Below are positions 12,386-59,232 of a stretch of DNA of 64,000 nt, piece by piece. This DNA is from Calothrix anomala FACHB-343 (GTDB lineage: Bacteria > Cyanobacteriota > Cyanobacteriia > Cyanobacteriales > Nostocaceae): NCBI RefSeq assembly GCF_014696435.1, contig NZ_JACJQG010000036.1, positions 24,760 through 88,759 of the forward strand, given 5' to 3'. Numbering within the stretch: position 1 is the first letter of the stretch; each line of letters starts with the position of its first letter. The notes below the pieces were generated by a model. That model was not told the DNA's origin and searched no databases. It worked only from the letters and a program-made list of their open reading frames with translations. Made by a program: the position numbers and the translations under genes.

Positions 12386-12598
12386 TCTCGTTGGCCTCGC
12401 GCGCTCACTTGATAGATTTTAGCTGAATAGGCAGTAAGCGCTGCAATCTAACTGTAATGTAATACCTTTGCTCAATTATAATGAAGGCGATTGTAGTTTT
12501 TCTGAGTTGGATTTGATGATAATCCACCAGGAAGGTACTGCCCCTTCTGTATCTGTGTTATCAGCACAGCGCCTCACTTTTCGGCTTCTGGTGGAAGG

Positions 12599-12681
12599 CG
12601 GAAGATGGAGGAATCGAACCCCTAGGTGTTACCCTACCCCGGTTTTCAAGACCGGTTGCCGACCATTTAGCGGCATCTTCC
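12599..12681 (-). tRNA. trnS-UGA: tRNA-Ser(TGA)
   Basis: Class II tRNA, last of the array. Acceptor GGAAGAT/ATCTTCC, anticodon loop CTTGAAA, long variable arm, T-loop TTCGATT. The 3' CCA is not encoded. Confidence 0.93.
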
Positions 12682-12686
12682 ATTTA

Positions 12687-12762
12687 GGGTATCTGACGGG
12701 GCTTGAACCCGTTATGACTGGTTCCACAAACCAGCGCCGCGACCGCTTTGGCTTCAGATACC
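12687..12762 (-). tRNA. trnH-GUG: tRNA-His(GTG)
   Basis: Acceptor GGTATCT/AGATACC with discriminator C73 and anticodon loop TTGTGGA. The base before G1 is T, so the usual extra G(-1) of histidine tRNA is not encoded. No CCA. Confidence 0.9.
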
Positions 12763-12766
12763 ACAG

Positions 12767-12840
12767 TGGAATCAAGGGGATTTGAACCCCTAACCTTCCG
12801 CTTGCAAGGCGGATGCTCTAGCCAGTTGAGCTATGACCCC
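12767..12840 (-). tRNA. trnA-UGC: tRNA-Ala(TGC)
   Basis: Anticodon stem TCCGC/GCGGA with loop CTTGCAA; T-arm AGGGG-TTCAAAT-CCCCT. Acceptor GGGGTCA/TGATTCC has two G-U pairs. It lacks the G3-U70-only pattern check: position 3-70 is indeed G-U. No CCA. Confidence 0.92.
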
Positions 12841-12846
12841 ATACAG

Positions 12847-12944
12847 CAGGAGTGGTAGGACTCGTAGACGCGGAGCGGCTTCCCGCAGGGTACCTACATC
12901 GCTCGATTTAGAAGATCGATGCCCATCCATTAGGCGACACTCCC
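12847..12944 (-). tRNA. trnR-UCU: tRNA-Arg(TCT) with T-loop insertion
   Basis: Acceptor GGGAGTG/CACTCCT and anticodon loop CTTCTAA in stem TCGAT/ATCGA. The T-stem GTAGG/CCTAC is intact, but the T-loop contains a 28-base segment (12865-12892) where two bases are expected, giving 98 nt. Functionality is uncertain. Confidence 0.85.
12865..12892 (-). repeat. Small dispersed repeat inside tRNA-Arg T-loop
   Basis: Read on the minus strand it begins TACCCTGCGGGAAGCC and ends GTCTA. It can fold as GCGG-GAAG-CCGC. The same element lies in tRNA-Val, tRNA-Gln(CTG), at 30267-30294 and inside GTAGGTTGGG palindromes. Confidence 0.85.
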
Positions 12945-12953
12945 ATGAATTAG

Positions 12954-13049
12954 TAGCCCTGACAGGATTTGTAGACACGGAGCATAAGGCAGGGTACCTG
13001 CGACTTCCTCTTTGTCAGAGAAGCACTCTCCCCACTGAGCTACAGGGCT
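12954..13049 (-). tRNA. trnV-GAC: tRNA-Val(GAC) with T-loop insertion
   Basis: Acceptor AGCCCTG/CAGGGCT, A73, anticodon loop CTGACAA. The T-stem GCAGG/CCTGT is split by a 25-base insert at 12972-12996, at the same T-loop position as in tRNA-Arg(TCT) and tRNA-Gln(CTG). Length 96 nt. Functionality uncertain. Confidence 0.85.
12972..12996 (-). repeat. Small dispersed repeat inside tRNA-Val T-loop
   Basis: A shorter, diverged copy: minus-strand ends TACCCTGC and CCGTGTCTA are kept, but the middle has lost the GGGAAGCC hairpin. Confidence 0.8.
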
Positions 13050-13054
13050 ACGAG

Positions 13055-13125
13055 AGCGGACGACGAGATTTGAACTCGTATCTGAAGCTTGGCATACTTC
13101 GGTGTTGCCCTTACACCACATCCGC
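13055..13125 (-). tRNA. trnG-GCC: tRNA-Gly(GCC)
   Basis: Acceptor GCGGATG/CGTCCGC, anticodon loop ATGCCAA, T-arm ACGAG-TTCAAAT-CTCGT, discriminator T. No CCA. Confidence 0.92.
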
Positions 13126-13133
13126 GTTATTGG

Positions 13134-13204
13134 AGCGATCGCCGAGAATCGAACTCGTACCGTGAGTTTGGAAGACTCTGATGCTACCTTTACAGTGCGA
13201 TCGC
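13134..13204 (-). tRNA. trnG-UCC: tRNA-Gly(TCC)
   Basis: Anticodon loop CTTCCAA; T-arm ACGAG-TTCGATT-CTCGG. Both acceptor strands read GCGATCGC-like HIP1 sequence (GCGATCG pairs with CGATCGC). CCA is encoded at 13131-13133. Confidence 0.9.
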
Positions 13205-13211
13205 ATTCTGG

Positions 13212-13285
13212 AGCTGGTGACAGGAATTGAACCTGCAACCTACTGATTACAAATCAGTTGCTCTGCCAGATTGAGCTACACCAGC
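13212..13285 (-). tRNA. trnT-UGU: tRNA-Thr(TGT)
   Basis: Acceptor GCTGGTG/CACCAGC, anticodon stem ACTGA/TCAGT with loop TTTGTAA, CCA encoded. A short hairpin (GTAGTCGC/GCGACTAC, 13311-13334) lies between it and the preceding tRNA-Leu(TAA). Confidence 0.93.
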
Positions 13286-13351
13286 ATTTCTGGATCTGAA
13301 AGTAGAAATTGTAGTCGCCCAAAAGAGCGACTACCCGCTCCATCTCAGCCA

Positions 13352-13425
13352 TACCCCTGACTGGATTTGAACCAGCATCTTCCAAATTTTAAGTTTGGCA
13401 CCTCTTCCAATTGGGTTACAGGGGC
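13352..13425 (-). tRNA. trnL-UAA: tRNA-Leu(TAA), class I body
   Basis: Acceptor GCCCCTG/CAGGGGT, A73, anticodon stem CCAAA/TTTGG with loop CTTAAAA. The variable region is only 5 nt (AAGAT) instead of the long arm usual in leucine tRNAs, and no group I intron is present, unlike many cyanobacterial trnL-UAA genes. No CCA. Confidence 0.82.
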
Positions 13426-13434
13426 ATAATTTGG

Positions 13435-13506
13435 TGGGTCGCCCAGGGGTTGAACCTGGATAAGTCTACTTAAAAGGTAGCTGCATATCCGCTCTGCCAA
13501 CGACCC
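13435..13506 (-). tRNA. trnK-UUU: tRNA-Lys(TTT)
   Basis: Acceptor GGGTCGT/GCGACCC, A73, CCA encoded; anticodon loop CTTTTAA; T-arm CCAGG-TTCAACC-CCTGG. The anticodon stem has one mismatch at its base. Confidence 0.9.
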
Positions 13507-13513
13507 AATTTGG

Positions 13514-13591
13514 TACTCCCGACAGGATTTGAACCTGTAACAAGAAACTCAGCGCTCAACTGAGTGCGTCTACCTATTCCGCCACGGGAGC
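13514..13591 (-). tRNA. trnL-GAG: tRNA-Leu(GAG)
   Basis: Acceptor GCTCCCG/CGGGAGT, A73, CCA encoded; anticodon stem CTCAG/CTGAG with loop TTGAGCG. The variable region is shortened to about 9 nt. Confidence 0.88.
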
Positions 13592-13596
13592 ATCAG

Positions 13597-13670
13597 TACC
13601 CCTGACAGGAGTCGAACCTGCAAAACACTCGGTCTAAACGAGCGACGGTTTCCAATTACGTCACAGGGGC
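13597..13670 (-). tRNA. trnL-UAG: tRNA-Leu(TAG), class I body
   Basis: Acceptor GCCCCTG/CAGGGGT, A73, anticodon loop TTTAGAC in stem GCTCG/CGAGT, T-arm GCAGG-TTCGACT-CCTGT. The variable region is 5 nt, as in tRNA-Leu(TAA) of this array. No CCA. Confidence 0.82.
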
Positions 13671-13676
13671 AAATGG

Positions 13677-13750
13677 TCGGGATGGTAGGATTTGAACCTA
13701 CGACTCCTTGTCCCCAAAACAAGGCTTCTAGACCACTGAATTACATCCCG
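13677..13750 (-). tRNA. trnP-UGG: tRNA-Pro(TGG)
   Basis: Acceptor CGGGATG/CATCCCG, A73, CCA encoded; anticodon stem CTTGT/ACAAG with loop TTTGGGG. Confidence 0.94.
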
Positions 13751-13758
13751 ATATCTGG

Positions 13759-13836
13759 TACTCCTGACGGGAGTTGAACCCGTACAAAATAGACTGTTTT
13801 TGAGACAGCCGCCTCTTCCAATTGGGCTACAGGAGC
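13759..13836 (-). tRNA. trnL-CAA: tRNA-Leu(CAA)
   Basis: Acceptor GCTCCTG/CAGGAGT, A73, CCA encoded; anticodon stem GCTGT/ACAGT with loop CTCAAAA; variable region about 9 nt. Confidence 0.88.
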
Positions 13837-13863
13837 ATAATTTTTCTGCTTTGATAAGCAGAA

Positions 13864-13938
13864 CTGGGAAGGCAGGAATCGAACCCGCGAGATCCTGAGC
13901 CAAAATCAGGTGGCTTTGCCAACGTCGCCTACTTCCCA
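13864..13938 (-). tRNA. trnQ-UUG: tRNA-Gln(TTG)
   Basis: Acceptor TGGGAAG/CTTCCCA, G73, anticodon stem CCTGA/TCAGG with loop TTTTGGC. No CCA. Confidence 0.93.
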
Positions 13939-13946
13939 ATAATTGG

Positions 13947-14046
13947 TTGCCGAGGTTGGGGTCGTAGACACGAAGTGGCTTCCCGAAGGGTACCAACTTC
14001 TCTGTGATTCAGAGTCACAGCGACTTTCCAAGTCGTCCACTCGGCA
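13947..14046 (-). tRNA. trnQ-CUG: tRNA-Gln(CTG) with T-loop insertion
   Basis: Acceptor TGCCGAG/CTCGGCA, A73, CCA encoded; anticodon loop CTCTGAA. The T-stem GTTGG/CCAAC is intact, but a 28-base repeat (13965-13992) sits in the T-loop, giving 100 nt. Functionality uncertain. Confidence 0.82.
13965..13992 (-). repeat. Small dispersed repeat inside tRNA-Gln(CTG) T-loop
   Basis: Minus strand begins TACCCTTCGGGAAGCC and ends GTGTCTA; folds as CTTC-GG-GAAG. Same position and orientation as in the Arg and Val genes. Confidence 0.85.
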
Positions 14047-14051
14047 ATGAA

Positions 14052-14126
<75 letters not shown>

Positions 14127-14135
14127 ATGTGCCAG

Positions 14136-14210
14136 TCCCCCAGATCCGGATTGAACGGATGACCTCCTGTTCTTCAAACAGGCGCTACTACCAACTGAGC
14201 TACCAGGGGA
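14136..14210 (-). tRNA. trnF-GAA: tRNA-Phe(GAA)
   Basis: Anticodon stem CCTGT/ACAGG with loop TTGAAGA; T-arm ATCCG-TTCAATC-CGGAT. The acceptor TCCCCTG/CTGGGGG has a T-G end pair and one T-T mismatch. No CCA. Confidence 0.88.
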
Positions 14211-14215
14211 TAAGG

Positions 14216-14289
14216 CGAGAACGGAGGGACTTGAACCCCCAACCTTCAGGTTCGTAATCTGAGATGCAATCCAGTTACACCACGTTCTC
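14216..14289 (-). tRNA. trnR-ACG: tRNA-Arg(ACG)
   Basis: Acceptor GAGAACG/CGTTCTC, G73, anticodon loop TTACGAA, which would need A34-to-inosine editing. One mismatch in the anticodon stem. No CCA. Confidence 0.9.
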
Positions 14290-14295
14290 ATCAGG

Positions 14296-14380
14296 CGGAG
14301 AGAGAGGGAGTTGAACCCACAGTGGACTTACATCCACGACTGTTTAGCAAACAGCTTGCCCTGCCGATAGCAATCTCTCC
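14296..14380 (-). tRNA. trnS-GCU: tRNA-Ser(GCT)
   Basis: Class II tRNA with long variable arm (GTGGA/TCCAC). Acceptor GGAGAGA/TCTCTCC, G73, anticodon loop TTGCTAA. No CCA. Confidence 0.93.
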
Positions 14381-14384
14381 ATAA

Positions 14385-14469
14385 TGGGTCGGGTAGGATT
14401 TGAACCTACGAGGCTCATAGGCATCCGTTTTACAGACGGCTTCCTTCAACCGGACTTGGATACCGACCC
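14385..14469 (-). tRNA. trnY-GUA: tRNA-Tyr(GTA)
   Basis: Class II tRNA. Acceptor GGGTCGG/CCGACCC, A73, anticodon loop CTGTAAA, T-arm GTAGG-TTCAAAT-CCTAC. No CCA. Confidence 0.93.
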
Positions 14470-14479
14470 ATCAATTTGG

Positions 14480-14553
14480 TAGTGCAGACGGGACTCGAAC
14501 CCGCTAATTACACGCTTGAAAGACGTGCCGCTCGGCCACTTCGCTTCTGCACC
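14480..14553 (-). tRNA. trnE-UUC: tRNA-Glu(TTC)
   Basis: Acceptor GGTGCAG/CTGCACT, A73, CCA encoded; anticodon stem CACGT/GCGTG with loop CTTTCAA. The D-arm (AGTGGCCGAGCGG) is unusual for Glu and looks serine-like, so identity rests on the anticodon. Confidence 0.78.
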
Positions 14554-14611
14554 AAGAGTGAAATTTCTACCACATGCAAGTTTGAGAAGCTGTTTTTTCA
14601 GCCCCCTGGTT

Positions 14612-14690
14612 TGGTGGAGGCTGTAGGATTTGAACCTACTCTGATTGAGATAATCAGATGACCAGTTTGTAAGCTTCTGATGTTGGGGCA
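14612..14690 (-). pseudogene. Degenerate tRNA remnant, 3' half only
   Basis: The T-arm GTAGG-TTCAAAT-CCTAC, the acceptor 3' strand AGCCTCC, A73 and CCA are clear, and a hairpin TCTGATT/AATCAGA precedes them. No matching 5' acceptor strand (GGAGGCT expected), D-arm or anticodon arm can be found before the tRNA-Trp gene. It is a 28th array member that has decayed. Confidence 0.6.
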
Positions 14691-14700
14691 CGTGGTAGAA

Positions 14701-14771
14701 CGCACAGACAAGGATTTGAACCCTGACCAAAGGTTTTGGAGACCCTGGTGCTGCCGTTACACCATCTGTGC
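14701..14771 (-). tRNA. trnW-CCA: tRNA-Trp(CCA)
   Basis: Acceptor GCACAGA/TCTGTGC, G73, anticodon loop CTCCAAA in stem AGGGT/ACCTT. The 3' CCA is not encoded. Confidence 0.93.
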
Positions 14772-14776
14772 ATTGG

Positions 14777-14848
14777 TCGCAGTGGTGGGAATTGAACCCA
14801 CATATCCTCGATTATGAGCCGAGTACCTTGCCGTTAGGTTACACTGCA
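14777..14848 (-). tRNA. tRNA with CAT anticodon (elongator Met or Ile2)
   Basis: Acceptor TGCAGTG/CACTGCG with a T-G first pair, A73, CCA encoded; anticodon stem CTCGG/TCGAG with loop CTCATAA. It lacks the three G-C pairs typical of initiator tRNA. No other isoleucine tRNA is in the array, so the Ile2 (lysidine) form is possible. Confidence 0.85.
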
Positions 14849-14856
14849 ACGTTTGG

Positions 14857-14927
14857 AGTCCAGGGCGAGAATTGAACTCGCACAGTCGGTTTTGCAGACC
14901 AATACCCTACCATTAGGCGACCTGGAC
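14857..14927 (-). tRNA. trnC-GCA: tRNA-Cys(GCA)
   Basis: Acceptor GTCCAGG/CCTGGAC, T73 (normal for Cys), CCA encoded; anticodon loop CTGCAAA. Confidence 0.94.
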
Positions 14928-14934
14928 ATTTTTG

Positions 14935-15008
14935 AAGCCTCGACGGGAGTTGCACCCGCTTCTCTCTGACTGAGAATCAGAGCGACTTTTCTATTCGTCC
15001 ACAAGGCT
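14935..15008 (-). tRNA. trnE-CUC: tRNA-Glu(CTC)
   Basis: Acceptor AGCCTTG/CGAGGCT; anticodon stem of six pairs CTCTGA/TCAGAG with loop TTCTCAG. The T-loop reads TGCAACT, so T55 of the near-universal TTC is replaced by G. No CCA. Confidence 0.82.
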
Positions 15009-15014
15009 ACAAGG

Positions 15015-15089
15015 CGGGGATGACGAGACTTGAACTCGCGACTTCCTATTCGACAGATAGGCACTCTTAACCGACTGAGTTACACCCCC
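15015..15089 (-). tRNA. trnD-GUC: tRNA-Asp(GTC)
   Basis: First gene of the array in transcription order. Acceptor GGGGGTG/CATCCCC, G73, anticodon stem CCTAT/ATAGG with loop CTGTCGA. Confidence 0.94.
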
Positions 15090-15175: not shown

Positions 15176-15204
15176 ATACTACATATATACTACAAAGCTG
15201 TCAA
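15176..15204 (-). promoter_or_regulatory. Sigma70-type promoter of the tRNA array
   Basis: On the minus strand TTGACA (15199-15204) is followed after 17 bases by TAGTAT (15176-15181), about 85 bases before tRNA-Asp. The spacer and -10 overlap repeated ACTACATATAT units (15167-15192), which could be an operator. Confidence 0.7.
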
Positions 15205-15293
15205 GGGTATACTACAAATTTTTTTTGAGAAATGAGAGGGCGGTGTTATTTAATGGCTGTATTGCCCTCTCTGACTGGGTTTAGGGGAGTGAA

Positions 15294-15842
15294 TTACTCA
15301 TTCTCAGTTAGGCGTTGTGCGTTCCAGAACTGTTCGGCAAATGCAACGGCTGGGTGAATTGGCGCTTTGGGTTTGGTTTTGAGTACCATTCCTGCTTCAT
15401 GGGGAAGGCGATCGCTTTTTGTCGAGTTACAACGTTCACAAGCTGTGACAACGTTGTCCCAGGTATGCTGTCCACCTTTGGAACGAGGTATTACATGGTC
15501 GAGGGTGAGACGCTTAGTACTACCGCAATATTGACAGCTATGGCTATCACGCTTGAGGACTTCACGGCGATTGACAGGTGGTACTTTCCAATGACGTTCG
15601 GGGTTACCGACAGTCAAACGAATGTGTTCGGGAACTTGTAGTACGATGCTAGGCGATCGCACTTCCCAAAGCGTTGAACTGCCAAACTCTAAGGATTCAG
15701 CCTGTCCGCTAACTAGCAAGACAATAGCGCGTTTGATATTAATCCTGGCCAATGGTAGGTAGTTCTTAGAGAACACCACTACCGAGTTTTGTAATACGTT
15801 TGCTTTCTGAGTCTGTGGTTGAGGTTCCATAGGTGAATTCAC
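15294..15842 (-). CDS. HNH endonuclease-family protein
   Basis: A 182-residue protein. The HNH/zinc-ribbon core is clear: CQYCG, then RLTLDHVIPRSKGG with the catalytic His, the central Asn in WDNVV, and CERCNSTK as the second zinc knuckle. The N-terminal ~80 residues (VVFSKNYLPLARINIKRAIVLLVSG) form the conserved partner domain of a family common across cyanobacteria. No secretion signal. It lies 204 bases upstream of tRNA-Asp on the same strand, but the array has its own promoter in between. Role unknown: DNA repair, restriction or mobile-element origin are all possible. Confidence 0.9.
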   Translation of the reverse strand: MNSPMEPQPQTQKANVLQNSVVVFSKNYLPLARINIKRAIVLLVSGQAESLEFGSSTLWEVRSPSIVLQVPEHIRLTVGNPERHWKVPPVNRREVLKRDSHSCQYCGSTKRLTLDHVIPRSKGGQHTWDNVVTACERCNSTKSDRLPHEAGMVLKTKPKAPIHPAVAFAEQFWNAQRLTENE

Positions 15843-30076: not shown

Positions 30077-30966
30077 AATAAGTATCTAAAGGCACAGCCA
30101 AAAACTTTTCAAACAACCTCTGAGCATCCCCCGCAGGTGTATAGGCGAACCCGCCAGACATCAAGATTCCAGCAGCAAACCCTACGCTTCCCGGAGTCCG
30201 ATTTAAACTAACTGCGGTGATTGATATCTTGCACCTACAGCCTATCAGGGTGAGGCTATACAAACATAGACGCGAAGCGGCTTCCCACAGGGTAGCCTGC
30301 GTAGGCAGGCTCATAAACTTATTTTTGCGGTTTATTGCTAAAATACAATGTTTATTAAAAGCTTATTAATTCAGTATAAATACCATGATGCAAGATGTAA
30401 GATGATTTTTGTCTCATATCAATTATTTCCCTACCCCATAAATACAACAACACCCAAGCTGCGACTTGCTTAGTGATTTCCTCTGTTTACTCAGGACACA
30501 CGGGGCTACAATTACTAATTACATTCTCGCTATGTAATTGCGTTTACTTGTATTACCCCCTCTTTACCACATTGAGGAAATATTAGCTTTCGAGTTGGGT
30601 GTTGTTGTTTGTTGACGAGACAGACTATGTAACAGCGTTTTTTACCTCTTAACTAGCGTGGACTTTGTCTACTTGGCTGTTGTATCTGCCAGGGAAGCTT
30701 TGTAGCTTCAATTATTAAAATAGCACTATTAATTTATGGTGTCTCATTTTGAAAGCAAACTTTACTGATATGCAAATATACACTCATTTTGTGTAACGGT
30801 TTATTAAATGTAGGGCATGGGGCATGGGGCATGGGGCATGGGATATTTATTAAACGTAATAGTGTTTATCTGGAAAAAAGCGATCGCTGTTTGTAGTCGA
30901 AAATTAAAGAACAAATGTTCTAATTATAATTAGCACTTTTATTTAAAGTTGTGATGGAGTGGGGGG
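30077..30966. other. Gene-poor gap with small repeats
   Basis: About 890 bases with no convincing gene. It holds a small dispersed repeat at 30267-30294 (same element as in tRNA T-loops), a GGGGCAT heptamer run at 30812-30842, and a 79-residue minus-strand frame (30075-30314) whose tail, GFAAGILMSGGFAYTPAGD, looks protein-like but is not recognised and may be a gene remnant. Confidence 0.6.
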
Positions 30967-59110: not shown

Positions 59111-59232
59111 GTAGGTTGGGTTGAACGAAGTGAAACCCAACAAAACCTCGGAAATGTTGGGTTACCCTGCGGGAAGCCCCTAGCCTTCGGCAACGCTCCG
59201 CGAACGGGTCTACGTTCCTCAACCCAACCTAC
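59111..59232. repeat. GTAGGTTGGG palindromic repeat, copy 3, interrupted
   Basis: Arms as in copy 1. The second arm is interrupted at 59163-59212 by a 50-base segment that begins TACCCTGCGGGAAGCC and ends GGTCTA, an enlarged form of the small repeat found in tRNA T-loops. Confidence 0.8.

Follow-up and report, generated by a model that had tools for sequence, protein, structure and literature searches.

Small hairpin-forming repeats interrupt the T-loops of tRNA genes in redundant cyanobacterial tRNA arrays, probably by insertion at TT|YR

The tRNA array of the window

The DNA analyzed here is a stretch of 64,000 nucleotides from Calothrix anomala FACHB-343, hereafter referred to as the window. 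It holds a tRNA array on its minus strand (12597..15089), composed of 23 genes called by ARAGORN, three interrupted genes and others, and recognized with Rfam as well. Upstream of the array, on the same strand, lies an open reading frame for an HNH endonuclease of 182 aa (15294..15842; PF14279, PF01844), and a motif search located three TGTAGTAT boxes, resembling the TrcR box, between this gene and the array (15176..15216, minus strand). The window holds six matches to the TGTAGTAT box, three of them in this interval, compared with 2.1 expected. According to the excerpts available of a report on Anabaena PCC 7120 (PMC10272220), the trn promoter of that organism has a TrcR-like box of the TGTAGTAT type, the TrcR regulon includes the HNH gene all8564, and rtcB and the trn operon share the TrcR repressor. 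Because its boxes and its HNH gene parallel this regulon, the array of the window is, by analogy, probably repressed and stress-induced. Both systems are long redundant tRNA arrays; they differ in that the same excerpts make no mention of inserts in tRNA genes (PMC10272220). An HNH endonuclease gene is annotated beside the array match, as in the window, in nine of the 15 best plasmid matches. Within the array, a tRNA-like gene at 14613-14697, with a T-arm GTAGG/CCTAC and ending in GCCTCCACCA, is called in the window by neither ARAGORN nor the Rfam tRNA model; it is conserved in orthologs (L059, L061, L063-L066).

Three genes of the array carry an insert in the T-loop: tRNA-Arg(TCT) (12847..12944), tRNA-Val(GAC) (12954..13049) and tRNA-Gln(CTG) (13947..14046), all on the minus strand. 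ARAGORN misses the three of them in the unmodified window and calls each one once TT replaces the insert, confirming the hosts named in the original prediction, which was made from the sequence alone. For Arg and Gln the ends of the gene were read from the sequence, and ARAGORN calls them only in this restored form; the Val gene is also covered by the Rfam tRNA model, insert included, at 48.6 bits. The predicted insert positions hold to the base: a 28-nt element, TACCCTGCGGGAAGCCGCTCCGCGTCTA, at 12865..12892, replacing TT54-55 of tRNA-Arg; a 25-nt variant, TACCCTGCCTTATGCTCCGTGTCTA, at 12972..12996 in tRNA-Val; and a 28-nt element, TACCCTTCGGGAAGCCACTTCGTGTCTA, at 13965..13992 in tRNA-Gln. All three were identified by sequence, ARAGORN restoration and directed scan, and those of Arg and Gln by pattern search as well. 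On the minus strand they read TA...TA, and in these three genes an insert of 25-28 nt takes the place of two T-loop Ts, GG-TT-CRA becoming GG-[TA...TA]-CRA. The pattern search, which does not catch the shorter Val variant, gave three matches in the window (Arg, Gln and a copy at 30267..30294) compared with none in 100 shuffles. Based on this shuffled-window control and on the controls of the model-free scan described below, a chance origin of the T-loop inserts was rejected.

Of the 70 tRNAs that Rfam identifies genome-wide, 22 share the contig of the array. ARAGORN scans of the loci of the other 48, on other contigs, called Arg(TCT) and Val(GAC) in intact form and, for glutamine, Gln(TTG) alone; because of these genes off the array's contig, the interrupted genes of the window look redundant. 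The same genome has an intact tRNA gene with a CTA anticodon (L259, labeled Pyl by ARAGORN), and two array genes with this anticodon carry T-loop inserts (L072 and L074). Judging from the anticodon, tRNAs of this kind are possible candidate amber readers.

Distribution of T-loop inserts in related arrays

The relatives in our study belong to the family of the window, with the exception of G043, from another family of the same order. Among 388 genomes of the order, 11 carry the T-loop pattern, at 18 places in all; the control gave one match. Of these places, 15 become ARAGORN tRNAs after TT is swapped in. The three others are a non-tRNA hairpin (L041) and two sites in tandem tRNA-like/YrlA-like clusters (L054 and L055); the YrlA scores of the units in clusters of this type fall below the Rfam cut-off. 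Six loci (L121, L122, L233, L246, L249 and L270) show tandem clusters in which tRNA-like units stand together with YrlA-like (Y RNA) ones, again below the cut-off and with T-loop-type inserts within or adjoining them. A looser pattern is present in 88 of 218 genomes of the family, with none in the control. Among the matches listed, we checked 45 in 30 loci of 30 genomes, several of them sampled before: the 32 inside arrays all lie in a T-arm and 28 of them are restorable, and of the 13 outside arrays two lie in a T-arm and none is restorable to a tRNA. L233, which lies outside a recognized array among YrlA-like matches, gives a weak tRNA call upon restoration.

Our array sample consists of 74 regions plus the array of the window, chosen as those most similar to it; 72 of these 75 hold at least four tRNAs. 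A directed scan of the 72 arrays found 131 T-loop inserts (139 minus eight that overlap ARAGORN-called genes) in 48 arrays, representing 82 sequences and 37 isotype-anticodon labels, alongside 1436 intact tRNAs, which means that ARAGORN overlooks about one in 12 array genes of the sample. The directed detector demands T[AT][CTG]...[TA]A, CRA and four of five T-stem pairs, and the end letters of these inserts are partly imposed by it. Some arrays (L064, L068, L089 and L115-L120, with 18 inserts) had a pattern match beforehand; leaving them and the window out reduces the count to 110 inserts in 38 arrays. Two further scans were unrestricted as to end letters, and it is to the first of them, not to the directed scan, that the shuffled and reversed controls belong. 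This model-free scan, in which TT was substituted for 14-61 nt across 420 gaps, restored 192 tRNAs versus four in reversed and none in shuffled sequence. The insert lies at T-loop distance in 144 of them, some spurious since this sorting shifts matches onto a T[AT]...[TA]A-type junction, and elsewhere in 48, which include anticodon inserts and trivial removals. The second, a deletion-only scan of 219 gaps, resolved 97, of which 79 are cut within the T-loop region.

Independent insertions at an empty TT site

Inserts are present in 70 of 239 tRNA clusters: 50 of the 70 have a majority of intact genes and 15 consist of inserted genes only. Different elements occur in 32 of the 34 clusters with at least two inserts, and in all there are 120 cluster-by-element combinations; in the Glu(TTC) cluster, for example, nine of 33 genes are interrupted, by eight elements. 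For 38 of the 131 inserts, including those of Arg and Gln in the window, restoring TT yields a tRNA body that is identical, apart from at most two terminal bases, to an intact tRNA in another array. The ortholog comparison covers 98 inserts (the other 33 fall outside it) whose nearest intact ortholog is at most 4 nt away; the site could be located in 78, every one of which reads TT, and 20 have differing flanks. Exact site and recurrence are thus observed directly, and the comparison with arrays lacking the insert, suggested in the original prediction, rejects an ancestral conserved T-loop segment, with the intact form in the majority in 50 of the 70 clusters and TT at 78 of 78 located sites. 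Because intact counterparts with TT exist in 38 of 131 cases, and because of the wide variety of elements and arrays, the sequences indicate that the T-loop inserts are many separate, mostly young insertions.

Two alternatives bear on this point. First, recombination or gene conversion within the arrays could have spread a single old insert, and the scattered distribution of the arrays does suggest that they move and recombine. Nevertheless, the three inserts of the window differ from one another, the sample holds 82 distinct inserts, and intact sister genes have identical bodies, making this highly improbable. Second, template switching during replication could copy the element at hairpins, using a one-base microhomology with entry at T and exit at C. 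The common end letters T...A, the flanking C and the replaced TT agree with it, and loops are known sites of replication pausing; against it, ad hoc slippage should scatter, whereas 79 of the 97 gaps resolved without any element model are cut within the T-loop region, and the intact orthologs read exactly TT. We regard template switching as unlikely.

Structure of the elements and similarity to known repeats

The 131 inserts comprise 75 of 21-27 nt, 44 of 28-29 nt and 12 longer ones; because each insert takes the place of TT, the 119 short ones add a net 19-27 nt. The two-hairpin build is apparent in the 70 distinct short inserts: hairpin 1 stands at the 5' end in 63 and hairpin 2 behind it in 52, versus 8.9 and 2.2 with shuffled insides, and the stems interchange with compensation (CCC/GGG, CTC/GAG, TCTCC/GGAGA). 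The elements also nest, 10 of the 12 long inserts being one element inside the loop TT of another, seven at CCC|TT|CGG and three at CGC|TT|CGC.

Elements of the 28-mer family have 53 copies in the genome of 9.24 Mb at up to two mismatches, versus none for the reversed pattern. The copy at 30267..30294 (minus strand), found by pattern searches, has CAGGC as its left flank and TG as its right. An element of the same kind sits at the tip of a palindrome at 59163..59212 (plus strand). The original prediction of an element splitting this palindrome at 59163 was correct as to its existence; however, reading of the sequence and the nesting rule suggest a 28-mer-type element with a second one nested in the loop of hairpin 2. 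The uninterrupted palindrome it had described, GGGTTTCGTTCC, also exists, and 864 kb of sequence hold 21 occurrences of its 16-mer seed. A k-mer survey of these 864 kb did not find the T-loop elements among the top repeats; the stretch contains 13 copies. Tandem AATTACG heptamers and CGCAAAGG repeats carry copies of the element as well.

In 2008, Elhai et al. reportedly described the small dispersed repeats (SDR) of Nostoc as about 21-27 nt long and forming hairpins with compensatory changes; these are also said to be nested in their own copies and present in heptamer repeats and minitransposons. The T-loop inserts share three features with this description: length and dispersal (75 of 131 within the range, 53 copies of one family), a common hairpin build with compensatory changes, and nesting in their own copies (10 of the 12 long inserts). 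They therefore fit the SDR type of very small, non-coding mobile DNA, but differ in the TT|YR rule, mostly in hairpin loops, and in the mass interruption of tRNA T-loops, neither of which the 2008 description is known to include. SDR5 likewise inserts into HIP1 at a fixed point (PMC4390886).

Target rule and landing sites

The original prediction took the inserts to be very small mobile repeats that hit tRNA genes repeatedly, with the same orientation and position in the T-loop. These aspects stand; the proposed target, GGTTC or GGTTTC, turned out to be too narrow, given that the TT before YR is what is replaced and that GG is dispensable outside T-arms. Among 21 non-T-arm context clusters, 20 keep TT|CG, TT|CA or TT|TG, and the palindromes and AATTACG heptamers also obey TT replacement.

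Searching element cores on both strands of the array regions returned 112 called T-loop copies and 38 others, with nine more outside. Reading these 38 by eye assigned 28 to T-loops, one to a nested position, two to anticodon loops, two to the stem end of Arg(ACG) and four to Gly(TCC), leaving one unclear. The 150 array-region copies are thus 140 in T-loops, eight at other tRNA sites, none in spacers, one nested and one unclear. TTC[AG] sites are by no means confined to T-loops, which hold 1336 of them, beside 1004 in other parts of tRNAs and 1165 in spacers, about a third; some 84 of the spacer sites resemble T-arms of uncalled tRNAs, and the contrast persists without them. Site occupancy is 140/1476 for T-loops, 8/1012 for other tRNA sites and 0/1165 for spacers (Fisher p 3e-37 and 9e-24 on these counts), a T-loop bias that selection alone does not explain, because an insertion in a spacer should do no harm and one elsewhere in a gene no more harm than one in the T-loop.

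It could be argued that the target is purely a matter of sequence, with TT|YR or GTTCRA read in double-stranded DNA and T-loops merely carrying the motif. The conservation of TT|CG, TT|CA or TT|TG in 20 of 21 non-T-arm clusters is in line with this, as are the contexts in which no hairpin is apparent. The empty spacer sites (0/1165) and the few occupied sites elsewhere in tRNAs (8/1012, compared with 140/1476 in T-loops) oppose it, and nested inserts sit in hairpin loops. A test restricted to GTTCRA, setting the loop against this longer motif, is weaker, with 0 of 63 comparison sites (p 0.003). A pure sequence target thus seems improbable to us, and we infer that it is the loop, rather than a longer motif, that is targeted. 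The target is TT|YR, mostly in hairpin loops. Outside tRNAs the bias toward loops is only suggestive: four of the 21 non-T-arm clusters have a strict stem of at least 5 bp (19% versus 8% background), one of the four being really a T-arm, and the AATTACG heptamers, the CGCAAAGG repeats and the Gly(TCC) and Arg(ACG) sites do not plainly fit hairpin loops. Because this genome-wide test on 21 contexts is no more than suggestive, loop targeting rests mainly on the arrays, the nesting and the palindrome tips.

All T-loop copies have sense orientation. In anticodon loops the Glu copy is sense and the Phe copy lies on the opposite strand, as does a copy in the D-loop of Ser genes (L242, L244, L245); both the Phe and the Ser D-loop copies are at TT|CA. 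The host of the anticodon-loop insert reads Phe(GAA) under the TT rule and Asn(GTT) under plain deletion, and the hairpin of its element shows a compensated difference in L094. The same opposite-strand anticodon-loop element was observed in arrays of several genera (L065, L070, L078, L083, L090 and L097, with variants in L094, L108 and L125), which would reflect common inheritance or array transfer. Two exceptions to the loop rule, both opposite-strand, were found: an element in the Gly(TCC) acceptor stem, at one site common to four arrays (L070, L076, L078, L092), and elements at the end of the Arg(ACG) anticodon stem in two arrays (L067, L130). A position of these last inserts within the anticodon loop was considered and rejected. 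Because of the opposite-strand copies in tRNA loops, and because both strands of the gene can fold, the target would be a folded single strand of DNA.

Fate of the interrupted tRNAs

Regarding the host genes, the original prediction left two outcomes: dead tRNAs, or tRNAs that tolerate or process the insert. The former is favored, with inactivation mostly recent. Processing by contiguous excision to TTCRA is impossible for 127 of the 131 inserts, because just four start with TT, and so the precise excision expected of a tRNA intron is not found. Archaeal tRNA introns that lie outside the anticodon loop resemble these inserts in lying off the anticodon; in contrast, the inserts described here are sporadic, with many different sequences, and 127 of 131 have no precise excision product.

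Comparisons with intact genes gave weak and partly conflicting signals of decay. The score difference between insert-bearing and intact tRNAs is -0.46 (n 122, sd 4.4); 118 of 135 insert-bearing genes are restorable versus 1326 of 1424 intact ones (p 0.02); body divergence is 0.181 versus 0.179; and an identical relative is present for 38 of 131 versus 131 of 300 (p 0.005), a slight difference in the direction of decay. As decay is slight overall, some interrupted tRNAs may therefore still be active. A Ser-type insert at 14 loci of genus g7, taken as old and common by descent, is restorable in eight of the 14 (p 0.0002 versus all intact T-arms, isotypes unmatched).

These results bear on a further alternative, that the inserts are T-loop introns, removed or tolerated, perhaps with the participation of the RNA ligase RtcB. 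In its favor, insert-bearing bodies are kept nearly as well as intact ones, the insert has a single position, the Rfam tRNA model still covers the Val gene, and rtcB and the trn operon are both under TrcR in Anabaena, according to the excerpts mentioned above (PMC10272220). On the other hand, 127 of 131 inserts have no contiguous excision to TTCRA, the majority of orthologs lack inserts, the same elements occur in non-tRNA palindromes, the common Ser insert shows decay, and Ser genes already interrupted have received second inserts in the D-loop (L242, L244, L245). Introns are very unlikely in our assessment, and it is with moderate confidence that we consider most inserts young and their host tRNAs inactive.

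Proposed mechanism and significance

The explanation that we consider probable as a whole is that SDR-type elements enter TT|YR sites, usually within hairpin loops, and persist in redundant arrays. The elements would be 21-29 nt long, with two tandem mini-hairpins and ends T(A/T)...(T/A)A, and their ends would replace the TT of a TT|YR step that in most cases belongs to a hairpin loop. tRNA genes would constitute standing targets, because every T-arm presents GG-TTCRA in its loop. Insertions in housekeeping tRNA genes would be purged by selection, and the survivors would be found in redundant, probably repressed and stress-induced arrays, their tRNAs most likely inactive. The target would best be understood as one folded strand of DNA and not as the tRNA transcript alone.

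As to the agent of this movement, a Y1 (HUH) transposase of the IS200/IS605 or RAYT type, moving the elements as single strands, is conceivable but rather doubtful. The two small hairpins, the lack of target duplication, the single-strand targets and the fixed orientation fit what is known of that family, and REPIN/RAYT and IS200/IS605 elements are similarly small, hairpin-built and believed to move single-stranded (for REPINs, see PMC3116915). The known enzymes of these types, however, use target letters that lie entirely 5' of the element, with no base replaced. In the T-loop elements, by contrast, the letters flanking the site are fixed on either side, TT being replaced and YR kept 3'. Alongside the insertion of SDR-type elements, we tentatively propose, at somewhat less than even confidence, that an undescribed activity recognizes TT|YR in a single-strand DNA hairpin loop and swaps TT for a two-hairpin module of 21-29 nt, the tRNA arrays serving as refuge and natural recorder.

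A literature search, conducted without the founding SDR paper, turned up no description of small repeats within tRNA genes of cyanobacteria; this lends weak support to the novelty of the finding. In Tolypothrix PCC 7712, a tRNA-Glu gene is reported to be interrupted by IS701 (PMC9679502). What looks new is the targeting of loops and the interruption of tRNAs on a large scale; the elements themselves resemble the known small dispersed repeats of Nostoc.

The way in which repeats of this size move has, to our knowledge, been an open question since their first description. The T-loops make the mechanism testable, because the sequence of the empty site is known to the base, about 120 cluster-by-element combinations are available and the target is structural, advantages that dispersed sites rarely offer. 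The finding also means that elements shorter than 30 nt are interrupting redundant tRNA arrays, and that the loops of tRNA genes, of Y-RNA-like clusters, of palindromes and of the elements themselves may form one class of landing sites.
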